Below the pieces are notes generated by a model. That model was given only the letters and a program-made list of their open reading frames with translations, was not told the origin of the DNA and ran no database searches. Positions 18,455 to 27,358 of a stretch of DNA of 64,000 bases are shown here, piece by piece. Source of the DNA: Terrabacter sp. Root181 (GTDB lineage: Bacteria > Actinomycetota > Actinomycetes > Actinomycetales > Dermatophilaceae). The translations under genes and the position numbers were made by a program. The first letter of the stretch is position 1; each line of letters starts with the position of its first letter. The stretch is taken from positions 1 to 64,000 of the forward strand of contig NZ_LMHU01000010.1 in assembly GCF_001428505.1 (NCBI RefSeq), read 5' to 3'.

Positions 18455-21043
18455 GTGTCACGGTTGAAGCGCGCCCGTCGGATCGTCCTGCTCGTCGCCG
18501 TCCTCGTCGTCATGGCGGTGGTCGGGGTCGGGATCCTGGCGATCGGGGTGGTGCGGCAGTCGTTCCCCGAGACCTCGGGCCAGCTCGAGATCGAGGGCCT
18601 GACGAGCTCGGTGTCGGTGCACCGCGACGCCCAGGGCGTCCCGACGATCTACGCCGACAACGCCAACGACCTCTTCCGGGCGCAGGGTTTCGTCAGCGCC
18701 CAGGACCGCTTCTTCGAGATGGACCTGCGTCGCCACGTCACGGCCGGCCGGCTCTCCGAGCTCGTCGGCAGCGCCGGCATCGACAAGGACAAGGTCATCC
18801 GCACGATGGGGTGGCGCCGTGTCGCCGAGCAGGAGCTGCCCAAGCTCGCGCCCGAGACCCGGCAGTACCTCCAGGCGTACGCCGACGGCGTCAACGCGTA
18901 CATCAAGAAGGCCGAGACGCCCGAGAAGATGTCGCTCGAGTACACCGTGCTCGCCCGCCGCAACCCGGGCTACCGCGTCGAGCCGTGGACGCCGGTCGAC
19001 TCGCTCTCGTGGCTCAAGGCGATGGCGTGGGACCTGCGCGGCGACTACAACGACGAGCTCGCCCGCGCGCGCCTCTCGCGCACGACGCGCTCGCTCAAGC
19101 AGATCAACCTGCTCTACCCGCCCTATCCCGTCGACCGCAACCTGCCGATCCTCTCGGAGCAGGACTGGCAGCCGGCGACCGCGAGCGACCAGGCGGCAAG
19201 CCCCGAGCCGTCGGCCCTCAAGGCGATGCGCTCGCAGGACGGCAACGCCGCGATCGACTCGGCCCTGGCGTCGGTCAACGCCGTCCCCTCGAGCCTCGGC
19301 CGCGGCGACGGCATCGGCTCCAACTCGTGGGTCGTCTCGGGCGCGCGCACGACGACGGGCAAGCCGCTGCTCGCCAACGACCCGCACCTCGCCCTGTCGA
19401 TCCCGGGCATCTGGGGCCAGGTCAACCTCCAGTGCCGCACGTTGAGCGCCGCCTGCCCCTTCCAGGTCTCGGGCTTCGCGTTCTCGGGCCTGCCCGGCGT
19501 CGTCATCGGCCACAACGACAAGATCGCGTGGGGCATGACGAACCTCGGCGCCGACGTCACCGACTTCTACCTCGAGCAGGTCTCGGGCGACTCCTACCTG
19601 CGTGACGGCCTCAACGTCCGGATCGTCAAGCGCGAGGAGACGATCAAGGTGGCGGGTGGCGCCGACGTCCCGCTCACCGTGCGCTCGACCGTGCACGGCC
19701 CGATCCTGTCCGACGTCGTCCCGGCCGTCGACGCGGCGGGTGACCGCAGTGTCGTGCGGGGCGCCCCGCAGTCCAACCGGTATGCCGTGTCGCTCGCGTG
19801 GACGGCGCTGACCCCGGGCACGACGGCCGACGCGATCTTCGCCCTCAACCGGGCCACGAACTGGTCCGACTTCCGCAAGGCCGCGGCCCTCTTCTCGGTG
19901 CCGTCGCAGAACCTCGTCTACGCCGACACCGCCGGCCACATCGGCTACCAGGCCCCCGGCAAGGTCCCGGTGCGACGCTCGGCGACGCCCGGCGCGCCCC
20001 CCGGCTTCTGGCCGTCGCCCGGCTGGGACTCGCAGTGGGACTGGAAGGGCTACGTCCCCTTCGACGACCTGCCCAACACCTTCGACCCCGCCGAGGGCTT
20101 CCTCGTCACGGCCAACCAGGCCGTCACCGCGAGCCCGACGCCCTTCCTCACCTCCGAGTGGGACTACGGCTTCCGGGCCCAGCGCATCCGCACGCTGCTC
20201 GCGGCGACGCCCAAGGTCTCGCCCGAGGCGATGTCGCAGATCCAGGGCGACATCCGCAACACGTACGCCCCGGGACTCGTCGAGCGCCTGCTCGCGGTGC
20301 AGGTCGACGACTTCACCGCCCAGGCGCAGCGCCTGCTGCGCGACTGGGACGGCAGCCAGCCCAACGACAAGACGCGCGACGCGGCGTCGGCGGCGTACTA
20401 CAACGCCGTGTGGAAGCACCTGCTCGAGTACACCTTCGACGAGCTCCCGCCCGACATCGCCCCCGACGGCGGCAGCCGGTGGATGGTCGTCATGGAGCAG
20501 CTGCTCAAGGACCCGAAGAACGACTGGTGGGACGACAAGACGACGCCCGGTGTCACCGAGGGCTCCGGCGAGATCCTCAAGCGGGCGCTCGTCGAGGCCC
20601 GCCTCGACCTCGCCCGTGAGCTGGGCAAGGTGCCGGCGACCTGGCGCTGGGGACGCCTGCACTCGCTCGACCTGACGCACCAGGTCATGGGCGCCGACGG
20701 CGTGCCCGAGCTCGTCCAGAACCTCTTCGACCGCGACGACATCGAGCTCGGGGGCGGCAACTCCATCGTCAACGCCAACGCGTGGAACGCCTCGAAGCCC
20801 GGCTACGACGTCACGAGCGGGCCGTCGATGCGGATGGTCGTCGACCTCGGCAACTTCGACGCGTCCCGCTGGGTCAACTCGACCGGCCAGTCGGGGCACG
20901 CCTACGACGACCACTACGCCGACCAGATCGACGCCTGGGCGGCCAACGAGACCTTCGCCTGGCCGTTCAGCCCGGCGGCGGTGCGCGACGCGACCGACGA
21001 CGAGCTCACCCTCGTGCCGCCGTCGCAGGCCTCCACCCCCTAG
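18455..21043 (+). CDS. Penicillin acylase-family Ntn hydrolase
   Basis: An 862-residue precursor. An N-terminal membrane-spanning/signal segment (IVLLVAVLVVMAVVGVGILA) indicates secretion or anchoring. The A-chain region has HRDAQGVPTIYADNANDLF and GFVSAQDRFFEMDLRRH; after a spacer the autocatalytic nucleophile serine is in GSNSWVVSGARTTTGKPLLA, followed by the B-chain motifs NDPHLALSIPG and VIGHNDKIAWGMTN. Family members hydrolyse penicillins, N-acyl-homoserine lactones or other amides. The serine and the oxyanion Asn appear intact. The start GTG 18455 follows TAGGCT (18443-18448) by six nucleotides, a leaderless layout. Confidence 0.92.
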   Translation: MSRLKRARRIVLLVAVLVVMAVVGVGILAIGVVRQSFPETSGQLEIEGLTSSVSVHRDAQGVPTIYADNANDLFRAQGFVSAQDRFFEMDLRRHVTAGRLSELVGSAGIDKDKVIRTMGWRRVAEQELPKLAPETRQYLQAYADGVNAYIKKAETPEKMSLEYTVLARRNPGYRVEPWTPVDSLSWLKAMAWDLRGDYNDELARARLSRTTRSLKQINLLYPPYPVDRNLPILSEQDWQPATASDQAASPEPSALKAMRSQDGNAAIDSALASVNAVPSSLGRGDGIGSNSWVVSGARTTTGKPLLANDPHLALSIPGIWGQVNLQCRTLSAACPFQVSGFAFSGLPGVVIGHNDKIAWGMTNLGADVTDFYLEQVSGDSYLRDGLNVRIVKREETIKVAGGADVPLTVRSTVHGPILSDVVPAVDAAGDRSVVRGAPQSNRYAVSLAWTALTPGTTADAIFALNRATNWSDFRKAAALFSVPSQNLVYADTAGHIGYQAPGKVPVRRSATPGAPPGFWPSPGWDSQWDWKGYVPFDDLPNTFDPAEGFLVTANQAVTASPTPFLTSEWDYGFRAQRIRTLLAATPKVSPEAMSQIQGDIRNTYAPGLVERLLAVQVDDFTAQAQRLLRDWDGSQPNDKTRDAASAAYYNAVWKHLLEYTFDELPPDIAPDGGSRWMVVMEQLLKDPKNDWWDDKTTPGVTEGSGEILKRALVEARLDLARELGKVPATWRWGRLHSLDLTHQVMGADGVPELVQNLFDRDDIELGGGNSIVNANAWNASKPGYDVTSGPSMRMVVDLGNFDASRWVNSTGQSGHAYDDHYADQIDAWAANETFAWPFSPAAVRDATDDELTLVPPSQASTP

Positions 21044-21148: not shown

Positions 21149-21763
21149 TCAGCGCAGCCGCACCACGCGCCCGGTGGTCGTGACGTAGCCGTCGACCGGC
21201 TGGTCGTGCGCGTCGGCGGGCAGGTCGGTGTCGCTCTGCTCGCCCTCGTGGAGCAGGGTGACGACGGGCGTGGCCGGGTCGCGGTGGAGCAGCGCGCGGT
21301 CGTAGCAGCCGCCGCCCTGGCCGAGCCGGGTGCCGTGGGCGTCGACGGAGAGCCCGGGCGTGACGACGAGGTCGCACGTGGCGAGGGCGTCGGTCCCGAG
21401 CCAGTCCTCGCGCTCGCCGGCGTCGGCCGCGTGGCCGCCGTGGCTGGGGCGGCGCACGGTGTCCCGGTCGCCCGAGGTGCCGGGGACGGCATACCTCCAC
21501 TCGAGCGAGAAGTCGTCGAGCACCACGGGCACGACGACCTCGTGACCGGCGGCGAGGAGCGCCTCGACGAGGCGTCCCGTGGGCGGCTCGTCGGGGAGCG
21601 ACTCGTAGACCGCCACGCGGGACCGGTCGGGCACGAGGCGCAGCACGGCATCGGCGATCGCCGCTGCCGCCGCCTCGCGCGCGGCCGGGTCGAGGTGCGA
21701 CGCGATCTCGCGCCGTCGGGCCCGCGCGGCGTGACGCAGGTCACGCTTGTCCAGGCCGCTCAC
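21149..21763 (-). CDS. 5-formyltetrahydrofolate cyclo-ligase
   Basis: About 204 residues if it starts at GTG 21763 (VSGLDKRDLRHAARARR), the length of the family; earlier starts up to 21856 overlap the divergent UGP gene. Conserved elements are VAVYESLPDEPPTGRLVEAL, EVVVPVVLDD and the ATP/substrate loop DLVVTPGLSVDAHGTRLGQG followed by GGCYDRALL. It converts 5-formyl-THF to methenyl-THF using ATP. In actinobacteria this gene normally sits beside galU/UGP and glp, as here. Confidence 0.9.
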   Translation of the reverse strand: MSGLDKRDLRHAARARRREIASHLDPAAREAAAAAIADAVLRLVPDRSRVAVYESLPDEPPTGRLVEALLAAGHEVVVPVVLDDFSLEWRYAVPGTSGDRDTVRRPSHGGHAADAGEREDWLGTDALATCDLVVTPGLSVDAHGTRLGQGGGCYDRALLHRDPATPVVTLLHEGEQSDTDLPADAHDQPVDGYVTTTGRVVRLR

Positions 21764-21822
21764 GGGGAGCACATTCCGCGCACTCGGGTGACGCACATGA
21801 GGCTCATCGTAAGGTGATGCCC

Positions 21823-24465
21823 ATGAGTGACCAGGGGCTCCACGCGTCCGTCGCACTGATGCGCGAACGGGGCCTCGGTCCTGAGGCGATCAGGGTGTTC
21901 GAGCACTACTACGAGCAGCTGCAGGCGGGGGCGCTGGGCACGATCCCCGAGGAGTCGATCGAGCCGCTCGGCGAGGTGCAGACCCTCCGCGAGGTGCAGG
22001 TCTCCGACGAGGAGGCGCGTGAGGCGCTGTCGCGGACCGCGGTCATCAAGCTCAACGGTGGCCTCGGCACCGGGATGGGCATGACCGGCGCCAAGTCGGC
22101 GCTCGAGGTCAAGGACGGCCTGACCTTCCTCGACATCATCGCCCTGCAGGTGCTGGCCCTGCGCGAGCGCTGGGGCGTCGAGCTCCCGCTCGTGCTGATG
22201 AACTCCTTCCGCACGTCGGAGGAGTCGCTCAAGATCCTCGCGAAGTACCCCGACCTCCCGGTCGAGGGGCTGCCCCTCGACTTCATCCAGAACGCCGAGC
22301 CGAAGCTGCGGCCCGACGACCTCATGCCGGTGCAGTGGCCCGACGACCCCGAGCTCGAGTGGTGCCCACCCGGCCACGGCGACATCTACGTCTCGCTCGT
22401 GACGTCCGGCGTGCTCGACTCCCTCCTGGAGAAGGGGATCCGCTACGCGTTCCTGTCCAACTCCGACAACCTCGGCGCGACGTGCGACCCCGACGTCGCG
22501 GCCTGGATGGTCGAGCACGGGCTGCCCTACGTCGCCGAGGTGTGCAAGCGCACGAAGAGCGACCGCAAGGGCGGCCACCTCGCGGTCCGCAAGTCCGACG
22601 GCCGGATCGTGCTGCGCGACACGGCGATGGTGGCCGAGGGGGAGGAGCGCTACTTCCGCGACATCAAGCGCCACAGCACCTTCAACGCCAACAACGTGTG
22701 GATCAACCTCGAGGTGCTGCGCGAGCGGATGACGGCCAAGCAAGGCGTCCTCGGCCTGCCGATCATCGTCAACCACAAGAACGTCGACCCCGCCGACCCC
22801 GGCTCGCCCGAGGTCATCCAGATGGAGTCGGCGATGGGCACGGCGATCGAGGTGTTCGAGGGCTCCGAGGCGATCCTCGTGCCGCGCACCCGCTTCCGGC
22901 CCGTCAAGACGACGAACGACCTGCTCGTCATCCGGTCCGACTTCTTCACCCTCGACGAGGGCTACCACGTCGTCGCGACCGTCGACGCGCCCGAGCCCTA
23001 CGTCGACCTCGACTCGGCCTACCGCTTCGTGTCCGGCTTCGAGCAGCGCTTCCCCAAGGGGGTGCCCTCGATGCGCGACTGCACGAGCCTGCGCGTCATC
23101 GGCGACCCCGTCTTCGGCCGCAACGTGCGCTGCGTCGGCGACGTGCTCATCGACGGCTACCGCCGGGTCCTCGACGACGCCGTGCTCGGCGAGCTGCCGA
23201 CGCCGCAGGCGGCGCCCGTCACGACGCCGGGCGACGTGCGCACCGTCGACGAGCACCTCAAGGCGATCCTCTCGACCCTGGAGCCGTCGCCGACCGAGTG
23301 GACGCCGCTCACCGAGGCGCTCGGCCTCGTCGTGGCCCGCGACGTCCGCGCCAAGGTCAACCTCCCGCACTTCGACAACTCCTCGATGGACGGGTATGCC
23401 GTCCGCGCCGAGTCGCTCGCGGGCGCCGGTGACGCCCCGGTGCGGCTGCGCATCGTCGGCGAGGTCGCCGCCGGAGCCAACCCGACCTTCTCGGTCGGCG
23501 TGGGGGAGGCGGCGCGGATCATGACCGGCGCCCCGGTCCCCGAGGGCGCCGACGCCGTCATCGCCGTCGAGGACACCGACGCGGCCGCGACGGGCGAGGT
23601 GGAGTGCCGCACCTCGGTCTCCGCGGGCCGCTACATCCGTCCGCAGGGTGAGGACGTGCGGTCGGGTCAGGTCATCGTCGCGGCGGGCGAGGTCGTCGGC
23701 GCCCGGACGATCGCGCTGCTCGCGGCCTGCGGCCACGCCGACGTCGAGGTGCACCGACGGCCGCACGTCGTCGTGCTGTCGACCGGTGCCGAGCTCGTCG
23801 AGCCCGGAAAGCCCTTGCAGCCCGGGCAGATCCACGACTCGAACTCGTCGATGCTCTGGGCTGCCGCCGTCGGCGCCGGGGCCTCGGCCGAGATCCGGGA
23901 CGCCGTCGGCGACTCCGACGAGGAGCTGCTCGCCGTCCTCGACGAGGTCGTCGCCGACGCCGACGTCGTCATCACGAGCGGCGGTGTCTCGATGGGGGCC
24001 TACGACGTCGTCAAGAGCGCCCTGCGCGGTGAGGGCATCGACTTCGTCAAGGTCGCGATGCAGCCCGGCAAGCCCCAGGGGTACGGCCTGCTCACCGGAC
24101 CGAACGGCAAGCGGGTGCCGCTCTTCGCCCTGCCCGGCAACCCCGTGTCGTCGTTCGTGTCGTTCGAGGTCTTCGTGCGTCCCGCGCTGCGGCGGCTCAT
24201 GCGACTCACGCCGGAGAAGCGCCGGCTGCGGCCCGCGACGCTCATCTCCGGCGTCGAGTCCTTCGGCGGACGCCGCCAGTTCGGCCGCGCCGTCGTGTCC
24301 CGCTCCGCCGAGGGCACCCTGGTGGCCGTCCCGGTCGCCGGGCAGGGGTCGCACTTCGTCGCCGACCTGTCCCGGGCCAACTCCCTGTTCGTCGTGCCCG
24401 AGGACGTCACCGAGCTCGTCGCCGGCGAGGTCGTCGACGTCCTCGTCCTCGACAAGGAGGCGTGA
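21823..24465 (+). CDS. Fusion: UTP-glucose-1-phosphate uridylyltransferase (UGP) + MoeA/Glp
   Basis: A single uninterrupted frame of 880 residues. Residues 1-~455 are a eukaryotic-type UDPGP enzyme: VIKLNGGLGTGMGMTGAKS at 74-92, FLSNSDNLGATCD, and HSTFNANNVWINLE. It makes UDP-glucose. Residues ~472-880 are a complete MoeA/gephyrin-E-like protein: FDNSSMDGYAVRAESL, MTGAPVPEGADAVIAVED, SGGVSMGAYDVVK, MQPGKPQGYG and FALPGNPVSSFVSFE. The linker (around GELPTPQAAPVTTPGDVRT) contains no stop. An internal GTG at 23236 could permit separate MoeA synthesis, but has no good ribosome site. The MoeA part may insert molybdate into molybdopterin, or, given the locus, be the divisome protein Glp. ATG 21823 follows TAAGGT (21810-21815) by 7 nt. 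Confidence 0.88.
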   Translation: MSDQGLHASVALMRERGLGPEAIRVFEHYYEQLQAGALGTIPEESIEPLGEVQTLREVQVSDEEAREALSRTAVIKLNGGLGTGMGMTGAKSALEVKDGLTFLDIIALQVLALRERWGVELPLVLMNSFRTSEESLKILAKYPDLPVEGLPLDFIQNAEPKLRPDDLMPVQWPDDPELEWCPPGHGDIYVSLVTSGVLDSLLEKGIRYAFLSNSDNLGATCDPDVAAWMVEHGLPYVAEVCKRTKSDRKGGHLAVRKSDGRIVLRDTAMVAEGEERYFRDIKRHSTFNANNVWINLEVLRERMTAKQGVLGLPIIVNHKNVDPADPGSPEVIQMESAMGTAIEVFEGSEAILVPRTRFRPVKTTNDLLVIRSDFFTLDEGYHVVATVDAPEPYVDLDSAYRFVSGFEQRFPKGVPSMRDCTSLRVIGDPVFGRNVRCVGDVLIDGYRRVLDDAVLGELPTPQAAPVTTPGDVRTVDEHLKAILSTLEPSPTEWTPLTEALGLVVARDVRAKVNLPHFDNSSMDGYAVRAESLAGAGDAPVRLRIVGEVAAGANPTFSVGVGEAARIMTGAPVPEGADAVIAVEDTDAAATGEVECRTSVSAGRYIRPQGEDVRSGQVIVAAGEVVGARTIALLAACGHADVEVHRRPHVVVLSTGAELVEPGKPLQPGQIHDSNSSMLWAAAVGAGASAEIRDAVGDSDEELLAVLDEVVADADVVITSGGVSMGAYDVVKSALRGEGIDFVKVAMQPGKPQGYGLLTGPNGKRVPLFALPGNPVSSFVSFEVFVRPALRRLMRLTPEKRRLRPATLISGVESFGGRRQFGRAVVSRSAEGTLVAVPVAGQGSHFVADLSRANSLFVVPEDVTELVAGEVVDVLVLDKEA

Positions 24466-24968
24466 TGAGCGACCAGCCGACCGGGCCCGGCGCTCCGGAG
24501 GTGCCGGCCCTGACGCACGTGCGTGCCGACGGGAGCGCGCACATGGTCGACGTGTCGGCCAAGGCCGTGACCGCCCGCGAGGCGAGCGCCGCCGGACGGG
24601 TCCTGCTCAGTGCCGACGCCGTCGCCGCGCTGCGCGCGGGGCGCGTCCCCAAGGGCGACGCCCTGGCGGTCGCCCGGATCGCCGGCATCCAGGCGGTCAA
24701 GCGCACCCCCGACCTCATCCCGCTCGCGCACCCCATCGCCGTCCACGGCGTCGAGGTCGACGTGACGGTCGCCGACGACGGCGCCGACATCACGGCGACG
24801 GTGCGCACGGCCGACCGCACCGGCATCGAGATGGAGGCGCTGACCGCGGTGTCGGTCGCCGCGCTCGCGCTCATCGACATGGTCAAGGCCGTCGACAAGC
24901 ACGGCCGCATCACCGACGTGCGCGTCACGGCCAAGTCCGGCGGACGCTCGGGGGACTGGCATGAGTGA
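24465..24968 (+). CDS. moaC: Cyclic pyranopterin monophosphate synthase MoaC
   Basis: 167 residues, overlapping the previous stop by one base (TGATG). Motifs: LTHVRADGSAHMVDVSAKAV, KGDALAVARIAGIQAVKRTP, LIPLAHPIAVHGVEVDV, TGIEMEALTAVSVAALALID and MVKAVDKHGRITDVRV. It converts the 3',8-cyclo-GTP product of MoaA to cyclic pyranopterin monophosphate. moaA is not in the window. Tight coupling to the UGP-MoeA fusion suggests that the MoeA half retains a cofactor role or at least remains in a moco operon. Confidence 0.95.
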   Translation: MSDQPTGPGAPEVPALTHVRADGSAHMVDVSAKAVTAREASAAGRVLLSADAVAALRAGRVPKGDALAVARIAGIQAVKRTPDLIPLAHPIAVHGVEVDVTVADDGADITATVRTADRTGIEMEALTAVSVAALALIDMVKAVDKHGRITDVRVTAKSGGRSGDWHE

Positions 24969-25455
24969 CGGCCCGGGCGCGGGGCGTCGCGCCGTCGTCG
25001 TCACGGCCTCGACGCGAGCGGCCGCCGGCGTCTACGCCGACCGGTCCGGACCGGTCATCGTCGAACGGCTCCGGGCCTGGGGGTTCGAGGTGGGCGCCCC
25101 GGTCGTCGTGCCCGACGGCGACGAGTTCGGGCTGGCCCTGCGAGAGGTCCTCGCCAGCGAGCCGGAGCTCGTGCTCACGACCGGTGGCACCGGCCTCACC
25201 CCGACCGACGTGACGCCCGAGCAGACCGCGCCGTTGCTCGACCGGATCGTGCCGGGGGTCGCCGAGGCGATCCGCGCGGCCGGCGTCGCCAAGGGCGTGC
25301 CCACGGCCATGCTCTCGCGTGGTCTCGTCGGCCTCGCGGGGCGCACCCTCGTCGCCAACCTCCCGGGCTCGCGCGGCGGCGTGACCGACGCGCTCGACGT
25401 GCTCGAGCCGGTCCTGGGTCATGCCCTCGACCAGGTCCCCGGCAGTGACCACTGA
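24961..25455 (+). CDS. moaB: MoaB/MogA-type molybdopterin adenylyltransferase
   Basis: 164 residues, overlapping moaC by 8 nt. It contains the MoCF_biosynth fold signatures VVVTASTRAAAGVYADRSG, VVPDGDEF, VLTTGGTGLTPTDVTPEQT and VANLPGSRGGVTDALDVLEP. It adenylylates molybdopterin before Mo insertion by MoeA. Part of a moeA-moaC-moaB operon. Confidence 0.94.
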   Translation: MSDGPGAGRRAVVVTASTRAAAGVYADRSGPVIVERLRAWGFEVGAPVVVPDGDEFGLALREVLASEPELVLTTGGTGLTPTDVTPEQTAPLLDRIVPGVAEAIRAAGVAKGVPTAMLSRGLVGLAGRTLVANLPGSRGGVTDALDVLEPVLGHALDQVPGSDH

Positions 25456-25524
25456 CGTGTGGGCACGAGTTCGACTGTGCCACCTGGTGATCCGACCTGA
25501 GCCGAGGCCGAGCGGGCGGCTCGC

Positions 25525-26163
25525 ATGAGGATGCCGTGGCGCCCGCACCGCGACGGCCAGGCCCGCTGGCCCGTCGTCCTGCGCGACTCCTCGTCCGAGC
25601 CGCCCATCGTGCTGCGGCCCCTGCGTCTCGACGACGAGCGCGACTGGCAGCGGGTGCGACGGGACAACGCGGCCTACGTCCAGCCGTGGGAGCCGACCCT
25701 GCCGCCGGGCTCGCCCGCCCGGGCACCCGTCTCGTTCCGTCAGTTCGTGCGTGACCTCGACACGGAGGCGCGCGCCGACCGGGCCATGCCGTGGTGCATC
25801 GAGGTCGGCGGCCGCATCGTCGGTCAGGTCCACCTCTTCGGGATCGTCCGCGCGGCCCAGCAGTCGGGTGCGGCCGGCTACTGGCTCGACGAGTCGGTCA
25901 CGGGTCGCGGCATCGCCACTCGCGCCCTCGCGCTGGCCGTCGACCACGCCCTCGGAGCGGCTGGACTGCACCGCGTGGAGGTCAACATCCGGCTCGACAA
26001 CCTGCCCTCGCTCCGGGTCGTCGAGCGCCTCGGCCTGCGCGACGAGGGCGTGCGCGAGCGCTTCCTCCACATCGACGGAGCCTGGCGCGACCACCGGTCC
26101 TTCGCCGTCACGACCGAGGACCTCGGCGGCTCGACCCTCACGGCTCGCCTGTCACAGGTGTAA
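25525..26163 (+). CDS. RimJ-like GNAT acetyltransferase
   Basis: 212 residues: PPIVLRPLRLDDERDWQRVR, YVQPWEPT, the acetyl-CoA region GYWLDESVTGRGIATRALAL and the C-terminal VNIRLDNLPSLRVVERLGLR. It resembles RimJ/RimL N-terminal acetyltransferases. In Corynebacterium and relatives a rimJ homologue lies between glp and glpR, and the same order is seen here. The substrate is unknown. Confidence 0.88.
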   Translation: MRMPWRPHRDGQARWPVVLRDSSSEPPIVLRPLRLDDERDWQRVRRDNAAYVQPWEPTLPPGSPARAPVSFRQFVRDLDTEARADRAMPWCIEVGGRIVGQVHLFGIVRAAQQSGAAGYWLDESVTGRGIATRALALAVDHALGAAGLHRVEVNIRLDNLPSLRVVERLGLRDEGVRERFLHIDGAWRDHRSFAVTTEDLGGSTLTARLSQV

Positions 26164-26233
26164 CACCAGCCTCTTGCGCGACACGCCTCGAATGTGCGAG
26201 GTCGTTACCGAACCGCGTCCTACCGTGGGTCAC

Positions 26234-27358
26234 GTGCCCGTCAGCAGCCTCATCTTCGTCGTCATCGTGGCGATCTGGGCTGCCTATCTCGTGCAGCACT
26301 GGGCCCGCCGCCGTGAGGACGCGGCCGCGTCCCGGTCGGTCGACGGCTTCTCCGAGGCCATGCGGGTCCTCGAGAAGCGACCCGCCCTGCCGACCCCCGC
26401 GCTGAGCACGCCCCGACCGCACTCGTATGCCGTCAAGCCCGCCAGTACCGGCCGGCCGACCGTCGACGTGAAGCGGGCCGTCCCGGCCGGCACGTCGCGT
26501 CGCCACTCTCCCCTCGTCGCCCGCCGCGCCGACGAGCGGGTCCTCGCGACATCGCTCGCCGCCGCGGGCGTCCCGTCCGAACCGAGCCACACCGACCACG
26601 ACATCGCCCCCTACCCCGCCGAGGTGGACCGCATGCCCGAGTCAGCGCGCCCGTCGAGCCACGGAGCCGAGCGACGCCACGCGCGTCCAACGGGTCCGGC
26701 GCCCGCCCGGGTGCCGCTGGCGCAGCGCCGCCTCCGAGCGGCGCTGCTCCTCGTCGCGGTCGCCTGGCTGCCGGTCTCCGTCGTGCTCACGGTCACCGAC
26801 GTGCTCATGTGGATCTCGATCCCGTTCGCCGTGCTCACCGTCTTCGCCGTGCTCGTCTGGCTGCGGGCCGAGGCCCAGGCCGATCGCCTGCGCACCGGCT
26901 CCGTCGCCGAGGGCCGCGTCCGCGGTCGGCGGCGCGGTCGTCGCCACGACGAGTCCTACGGCTCGGGCGACAGCGCGCACCACCTGCCCGTGCTCTCGAG
27001 CGAGGACACCCAGGTCATCCGCAGCGCAGCCACCTTCGCGCCGTCGGAGGGCGTGGCGGTCTCCCGCGAGTCGCAGACGGTCGTCGCGCAGCACGCCGCT
27101 CAGGTCGAGCCGGGCGTCTTCGACGTCCAGGCACCGATCACCGGTGAGGTGCCCGTCGCCGCCGTCGAGCACCCCGCGGAGGGCAGCTGGAGCCCGGTCC
27201 CCGTGCCGCGCCCGACCTACTCGCTCAAGGCGAAGGCTGAGCCGCGCTACACCGAGTCCGGCATCCCGGCCGACGTCTTCGACACCCCGGAGTTCGCCGA
27301 GGAGGCCGAGGAGCTCGACGACCGAGCCCTCTTCGCCCGTCGCGCCGTCTCCCACTAG
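26234..27358 (+). CDS. glpR: GlpR-like membrane protein, putative receptor of Glp
   Basis: About 374 residues from GTG 26234 (VPVSSLIFVVIVAIWAAYLV); TACCGT (26221-26226) 7 nt upstream gives a leaderless start. A single N-terminal helix is followed by a basic, disordered cytosolic stretch (WARRREDAAASRSVDGFSEA), then a second membrane hairpin (ALLLVAVAWLPVSVVLTVTD and WISIPFAVLTVFAVLVWLRA), and an acidic, Pro/Tyr-containing C-terminal tail (VPVPRPTYSLKAKAEPRYT). This architecture and its position after MoeA/Glp and rimJ match GlpR, the membrane receptor of the gephyrin-like division protein Glp described in Corynebacterium. Orthology is inferred from layout and context only. Confidence 0.7.
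   Translation: MPVSSLIFVVIVAIWAAYLVQHWARRREDAAASRSVDGFSEAMRVLEKRPALPTPALSTPRPHSYAVKPASTGRPTVDVKRAVPAGTSRRHSPLVARRADERVLATSLAAAGVPSEPSHTDHDIAPYPAEVDRMPESARPSSHGAERRHARPTGPAPARVPLAQRRLRAALLLVAVAWLPVSVVLTVTDVLMWISIPFAVLTVFAVLVWLRAEAQADRLRTGSVAEGRVRGRRRGRRHDESYGSGDSAHHLPVLSSEDTQVIRSAATFAPSEGVAVSRESQTVVAQHAAQVEPGVFDVQAPITGEVPVAAVEHPAEGSWSPVPVPRPTYSLKAKAEPRYTESGIPADVFDTPEFAEEAEELDDRALFARRAVSH

Follow-up and report, generated by a model that had tools for sequence, protein, structure and literature searches.

In Terrabacter sp. Root181, a member of the Dermatophilaceae, a eukaryotic-type UTP-glucose-1-phosphate uridylyltransferase (UGP) is fused to a MoeA-like protein. The gene lies on contig 10 of a 4.94 Mb genome, within its leading 64,000 nucleotides; this stretch, analyzed as a whole, is called the window hereafter. 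The open frame of 880 codons (window 21823–24465, forward strand) runs from the ATG at 21823, which is preceded by the Shine-Dalgarno (SD)-like sequence aaggtga, to the stop codon ending at 24465 and has no internal stop; the GTG at 21814 is a possible alternative start. The fusion protein has a theoretical mass of 94.4 kDa and carries the Pfam domains UDPGP (residues 25–436), MoeA_N (474–637), MoCF_biosynth (651–790), and MoeA_C (809–876), every one above its cut-off. The UGP half comprises residues ~1–441 (21823–23145, forward strand) and is assigned by PF01704 and the solved structure 3gue. A linker of 16 residues, ELPTPQAAPVTTPGDV (23191–23238, forward strand), was delimited by comparison of junctions, and the MoeA half with domains I–IV (23239–24462, forward strand) is assigned by Pfam, active-site residues, an AlphaFold2 (AF2) model, and a fold search. 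The first-pass annotation of the window had described a single frame in which a stop-free linker connects a complete eukaryotic-type UGP with a complete MoeA-like protein, and both the open frame and the Pfam domains agree with this description.

The fusion is real, conserved, and limited to one lineage. It is kept across the genus, where eight of nine genomes carry the full fusion with an unbroken frame and the ninth has a contig fragment (query residues 407–880) that crosses the linker without a stop, which answers the concern that the linker might be a sequencing error open to correction. Within the family, the fusion was found in 17 of 186 Dermatophilaceae genomes and in 6 of 53 genera, one fragment counted in, and the named records include Terrabacter, a Terracoccus, Humibacillus, and Intrasporangium flavum. 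The fused rows are not independent, as several come from close strains and L052 does not differ from L158. The contigs of G034 and G058 break off within UGP, before the junction; in G024, also close to a contig end, a stop follows UGP. For the order, with a sample of 396 genomes and E up to 1e-100, all unbroken full-length matches among those listed belong to family members. No further fusion was seen in the samples of the class (394 genomes, E up to 1e-180) or the phylum (396 genomes, E up to 1e-150); the three samples overlap, and a distant fusion under these thresholds would escape. Unfused neighbours occur in five class-sample genomes that belong to another family, where moeA comes immediately after UGP and the alignment contains one TGA. 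Such UGP-moeA neighbours with a single TGA are seen in L214–L217 (genomes G672, G652, G808, and G763).

The UGP half is complete, since PF01704 matches the whole protein with 414.6 bits over profile positions 3–411 of 413. Its best solved relative is 3gue, UTP-glucose-1-phosphate uridylyltransferase 2 (E 1.1e-111). Like the eukaryotic-type enzymes 3gue and 2oef, to which it aligns at near full length, it has the KLNGGLGTGMG loop and further motifs in common; unlike them, it is bacterial and bears MoeA on its C-terminus. In this family, the eukaryotic-type UGP often occupies the operon slot of galU. In a tally copied by hand from two family scans, 47 of the 186 genomes have a strong galU match (42 above the curated cut-off), 136 have a UGP-level match, none has both, and 3 have neither. 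A strong galU match is absent from the genome of Terrabacter sp. Root181 (best E 4.3e-9), which has one UDPGP protein only, and the fused UGP is therefore the sole UDP-glucose pyrophosphorylase found in the genome.

The junction itself varies among the fused genes. The linker measures 10–23 amino acids across 16 fused rows, with the frame open in each, and its ratio of nonsynonymous to synonymous substitution rates (0.41) compares with 0.19 for UGP and 0.21 for MoeA (7 sequences, 21 pairs). Its last codon in the window, GTG 23236–23238, is at the moeA start position of unfused relatives. The unfused sister G053 reads TGA-C-GTG at the junction and the window reads GAC-GTG at the same place, so that loss of a single base would convert the former into the latter. 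In a MoeA tree of 92 rows made by a quick method, 14 fused rows form a single clade with a support of 98. This tree omits most near-identical mycobacterial and Actinomyces rows. Also dropped from the rows were L093 (one stop in the match, written X), partial matches under a length limit (e.g., L124), and L139 and L140, which duplicate L044 and L053.

The question whether the MoeA half is a working molybdenum insertase (Mo-insertase) or a divisome protein is posed by Glp of Corynebacterium glutamicum (Cgl0883), which has the same operon position and the same MoeA fold. In the parts of Martinez et al. (2023, PMC10522489) that deal with its signature, Glp is defined by the FtsZ-binding loop M361–Y369, two proline-rich hinges, synteny with glpR, and phylogeny; an altered and probably dead molybdenum active site and a further MoeA copy in the genome are added in the relevant part of Megrian et al. 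(2025, PMC11733289). As Glp references we used galU- and rimJ-linked MoeA copies (L185–L188) from a Gordonia, a Tsukamurella, and two Mycobacterium genomes. The best-matching mycobacterial copies (~47% identity, L060–L101) were tried as Glp and rejected, being without galU or rimJ neighbours, and a PF03453 search led to the more distant L185–L188. At these four loci, tblastn with the GlpR of the window gave no GlpR match; because GlpR is divergent, the loci were recognized from the loop and from the presence of galU and rimJ alongside.

Compared with these references, the fused MoeA half looks like an enzyme. The residues D59, T100, R137, D142, E188, D228, R350, and S371 of Escherichia coli MoeA, which PDB titles name as mutated in crystal structures of this protein, are kept in 17/17 fused and 27/27 unfused family rows. 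D259 and K275, which we presume to have a functional role, were also tabulated. The FtsZ-binding loop is absent by alignment from the MoeA half of the window and from all the fused rows (0/17), and at the loop site this half matches the short E. coli MoeA in length; the check for FtsZ-binding residues that the first-pass annotation had proposed thus came out negative for the M361–Y369 loop in these rows. Conversely, the LMRD loop is present in all four Corynebacteriales Glp references and Asp228 in none of them. This residue is described as most likely catalytically relevant and required for Mg coordination in the part of a review that treats it (PMC9458074). The AF2 model of the MoeA half alone has a mean predicted local distance difference test (pLDDT) score of 92.1. 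In the fold search, this model gave template modelling (TM) scores of 0.90 with Cnx1E, 0.80 with Glp (8bve_A), and 0.75 with E. coli MoeA 1g8l_A, other E. coli MoeA chains reaching 0.86, and on the predicted fold Glp and MoeA are not cleanly separated.

Copy number points in the same direction as the active site. A PF03453 search of 12 family genomes found no MoeA besides the moaC-linked copy in 7 of them (G028, G157, G046, G030, G009, G126, and G013). MoaC and proteins of the molybdoenzyme family PF00384 occur in all seven, with a PF00384 match of E 1e-54 or better in every genome, and in six of them the GlpR-like gene shares the cluster of the sole MoeA, tblastn having found none for G030. 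Judging from this gene content, the moaC-linked copy in the seven genomes must be the working Mo-insertase, unless another enzyme substitutes for it.

The fused gene is followed on the forward strand by moaC (24462–24968; PF01967, with NF006870 and TIGR00581 above their cut-offs), whose start overlaps the fused-gene stop, by a moaB-like MoCF_biosynth gene (24961–25455; domain profile matches), by a RimJ-like GCN5-related N-acetyltransferase (GNAT) gene (25525–26163; PF13302, with PRK10809 scoring 53 bits against a cut-off of 190), and by the gene of a SepX/GlpR-like membrane protein (26222–27358; start approximate). Divergent from the fused gene lies the gene of 5-formyltetrahydrofolate cyclo-ligase (5-FCL; 21149–21856, reverse strand; PF01812, TIGR02727), given here as the longest frame, the real start being probably more internal. 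The locus is adjoined by a gene for a penicillin amidase family protein (PF01804, 774.8 bits; window 18455–21043). Pfam and NCBIfam confirmed all the neighbours named in the first-pass annotation, with the GlpR-like match below cut-off, and the synteny it had drawn with the corynebacterial order 5-FCL/galU/glp/rimJ/glpR also holds, UGP standing in place of galU.

Gene order was followed by tblastn in 40 family stretches and 77 named loci; the GalU query had ~95 extra residues 5' of the true start, and its matching part alone was used. The common order is 5-FCL, galU or UGP, moeA, moaC, moaB, rimJ, and glpR, and in some genomes UGP is located away from the locus (e.g., L144–L147 and L150–L152). 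In G065 (L135), G101 (L136), and G090 (L154), UGP or galU, rimJ, and the GlpR-like gene are kept at a locus without moeA, moaC, and moaB, and a separate moeA-moaC cluster is carried elsewhere (L199–L201). A co-loss of molybdenum cofactor (Moco) synthesis was considered for these three genomes and dropped when this cluster was found. Their arrangement shows only that glpR can stay without an adjoining moeA.

The membrane protein at 26222–27358 is recognized only by the NCBIfam SepX/GlpR models, below their cut-off (NF050099, 90.3 bits against 150). From hydropathy and isoelectric point (pI), it has three hydrophobic, transmembrane-like stretches and two oppositely charged regions, the first loop having a pI of 11.1 and the tail a pI of 5.2. 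The same predicted layout of three transmembrane segments and two cytoplasmic regions, the latter largely disordered, is given for SepX of Streptomyces in part of PMC8748795; unlike SepX, the neighbour in the window scores under the model cut-off. Its charge order is the reverse of that in C. glutamicum GlpR, for which pI values of 4.05 and then 10.87 are given in a section of PMC10522489. The suggestion of a GlpR-like neighbour is thus upheld in the form of a SepX/GlpR-like gene with a sub-cut-off score.

Taken together, we think it probable that the locus makes one bifunctional protein, in which an N-terminal UGP would make UDP-glucose and a C-terminal MoeA would act as a working Mo-insertase, and that it arose by the merging of two adjoining operon genes. 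In an ancestor of the Terrabacter/Humibacillus lineage, a eukaryotic-type UGP would already have taken over the operon slot of the bacterial galU, with its stop codon overlapping or directly adjoining the start of moeA. Both frames may then have merged through a small deletion at the junction, and a short, variable linker would have been retained. As MoeA dimerizes, the product would be a dimer bearing two UGP domains, and the GlpR-like, RimJ-like, and Moco genes would be ancestral operon neighbours. The fused half resembles the Mo-insertases E. coli MoeA, Cnx1E, and the gephyrin E domain in having all three Pfam MoeA domains and the active-site residues, and its predicted fold is nearest to Cnx1E; it differs in standing behind a UGP and in the replacement of K279 by Q. 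MoeA is joined to another domain in known fusions as well, namely MogA-MoeA in gephyrin and Cnx1 and MoeA with a PBP domain in archaea (part of PMC11733289). The partners there serve Moco chemistry, receptor clustering, or maybe metal capture, whereas here the partner is a sugar-nucleotide enzyme. Our searches of open-licence PMC papers found no report of a UGP-MoeA fusion.

Several observations weigh against the reading as one bifunctional enzyme. The AF2 model of the whole 880-residue fusion is poor, with a mean pLDDT of 61 and values below 50 for over half of the UGP residues; it was discarded as a basis for any reading. In a UGP tree of 50 rows, the unfused G053 falls within the fused group, and two changes are needed; because of this position, either one origin followed by a reversal or two origins of the fusion are possible. 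A second MoeA (G000:C5) is encoded in Terrabacter at ~3 kb from an fdhD-like gene (L210 6057–7562 and 10285–11586), so that the role of Mo-insertase need not fall to the fused half in this genome; in this second MoeA and its relatives, R350 and S371 are changed in 9/9 rows. The PF00384 family counted in the sole-MoeA genomes takes in non-molybdenum relatives such as NuoG. The Q at K279 is found likewise in 8/8 Corynebacteriales housekeeping rows. Scored with NCBIfam, the MoeA half reaches 465.5 bits with the Glp model NF045515 (cut-off 475) and 456 bits with the MoeA_actino model NF050098 (cut-off 560), so that Glp leads by 9.5 bits with both below cut-off. A loopless Rhizohabitans copy with intact motifs scores 556 with the Glp model, above cut-off, and a mycobacterial housekeeping MoeA, to which the MoeA model gives 655, just reaches the Glp cut-off with 475.3. 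This makes the Glp model broader than the published signature, and its cut-off separates poorly. In a tree test with 45 hand-picked rows, joining all locus copies and the Corynebacteriales Glp in one clade worsened the log-likelihood by 20.96 (approximately unbiased test, p = 0.0646), and this grouping is not rejected. The hinge prolines are partly present, with EPSP and RRPH compared with APRP and HPRPR, the last of which also occurs in the non-locus MoeA L177. The FtsZ of the genome ends in DDLDVPDFLK, so that a tail of the kind bound by Glp exists, and the hydropathy-based topology of the GlpR-like protein agrees with the descriptions of GlpR and SepX.

The alternative that survives best, though we hold it to be unlikely, is that an active Mo-insertase uses a different surface to bind GlpR or FtsZ as well, comparable with gephyrin and its receptors, and so brings Moco and UDP-glucose enzymes to the septal membrane. 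A GlpR-like gene near an intact MoeA in many family loci, its place in the cluster of the sole MoeA in six genomes, and the partial hinge prolines would fit such a second role. Set against these, glpR persists at loci that moeA has left, and the order of the pI values of its loop and tail is opposite to that in C. glutamicum. A scaffold built in the manner of gephyrin, in which the active MoeA dimer would dock on the GlpR-like protein and place the synthesis of UDP-glucose, and also of Moco, at the septal or polar growth site, we regard as somewhat less likely still; if it were true, the Dermatophilaceae locus would be an intermediate step between enzyme and Glp.

We judge it quite improbable that the MoeA half is an enzymatically dead Glp which binds FtsZ and GlpR and tethers UGP at the division site. 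Besides the glp-glpR synteny and the SepX/GlpR-like neighbour, the slight lead of the Glp model and the FtsZ tail speak for it. Opposed to it are the missing loop and the intact Mo-insertase site, unlike the tested Corynebacteriales Glp, the seven relatives with the moaC-linked copy as sole MoeA, the retention of glpR without an adjoining moeA in G065, G101, and G090, and a tree that leans against a single clade with the Corynebacteriales Glp without rejecting it. In addition, the fused half differs from those Glp proteins by its N-terminal UGP. The first-pass annotation had favoured a divisome Glp and had named a Moco enzyme as the alternative; of the two, the alternative fits better, given the kept active site, the absent loop, the sub-cut-off Glp score, and the sole-copy relatives. 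A link of the fusion to cell division is a hypothesis, so far without support.

It is more improbable again that, although the frames are joined, MoeA is also or mainly made separately in Terrabacter from the internal GTG at 23236. An ATG or GTG stands at the moeA start position in 28 of 29 unfused rows, and nine of the 17 fused rows, among them that of the window, keep a GTG there. None of these nine has an SD-like run of at least 5 bases before it; for the window, this makes a second, shorter product unlikely. The same codon specifies an aliphatic residue that is conserved, the start codon is lost from the ancestral position in 8/17 fused rows, and in 5/17 no in-frame ATG, GTG, or TTG occurs from −8 to +5 codons around it. 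An assembly or sequencing artefact, with no point in its favour, is refuted by the conservation of the same fusion in 17 family genomes, separately deposited named records among them, and its likelihood is close to nil.

For the organism, the fusion puts enzymes of two unrelated pathways at fixed stoichiometry in one polypeptide. For the family, a GlpR-like gene beside a sole, intact-looking MoeA in six relatives perhaps represents the state before the repurposing of MoeA into Glp. A MoeA at a glp-glpR-like locus should not automatically be named Glp. Because GlpR-like genes stand here beside MoeA proteins with an intact-looking active site, the locus makes it directly testable when and how MoeA became Glp.

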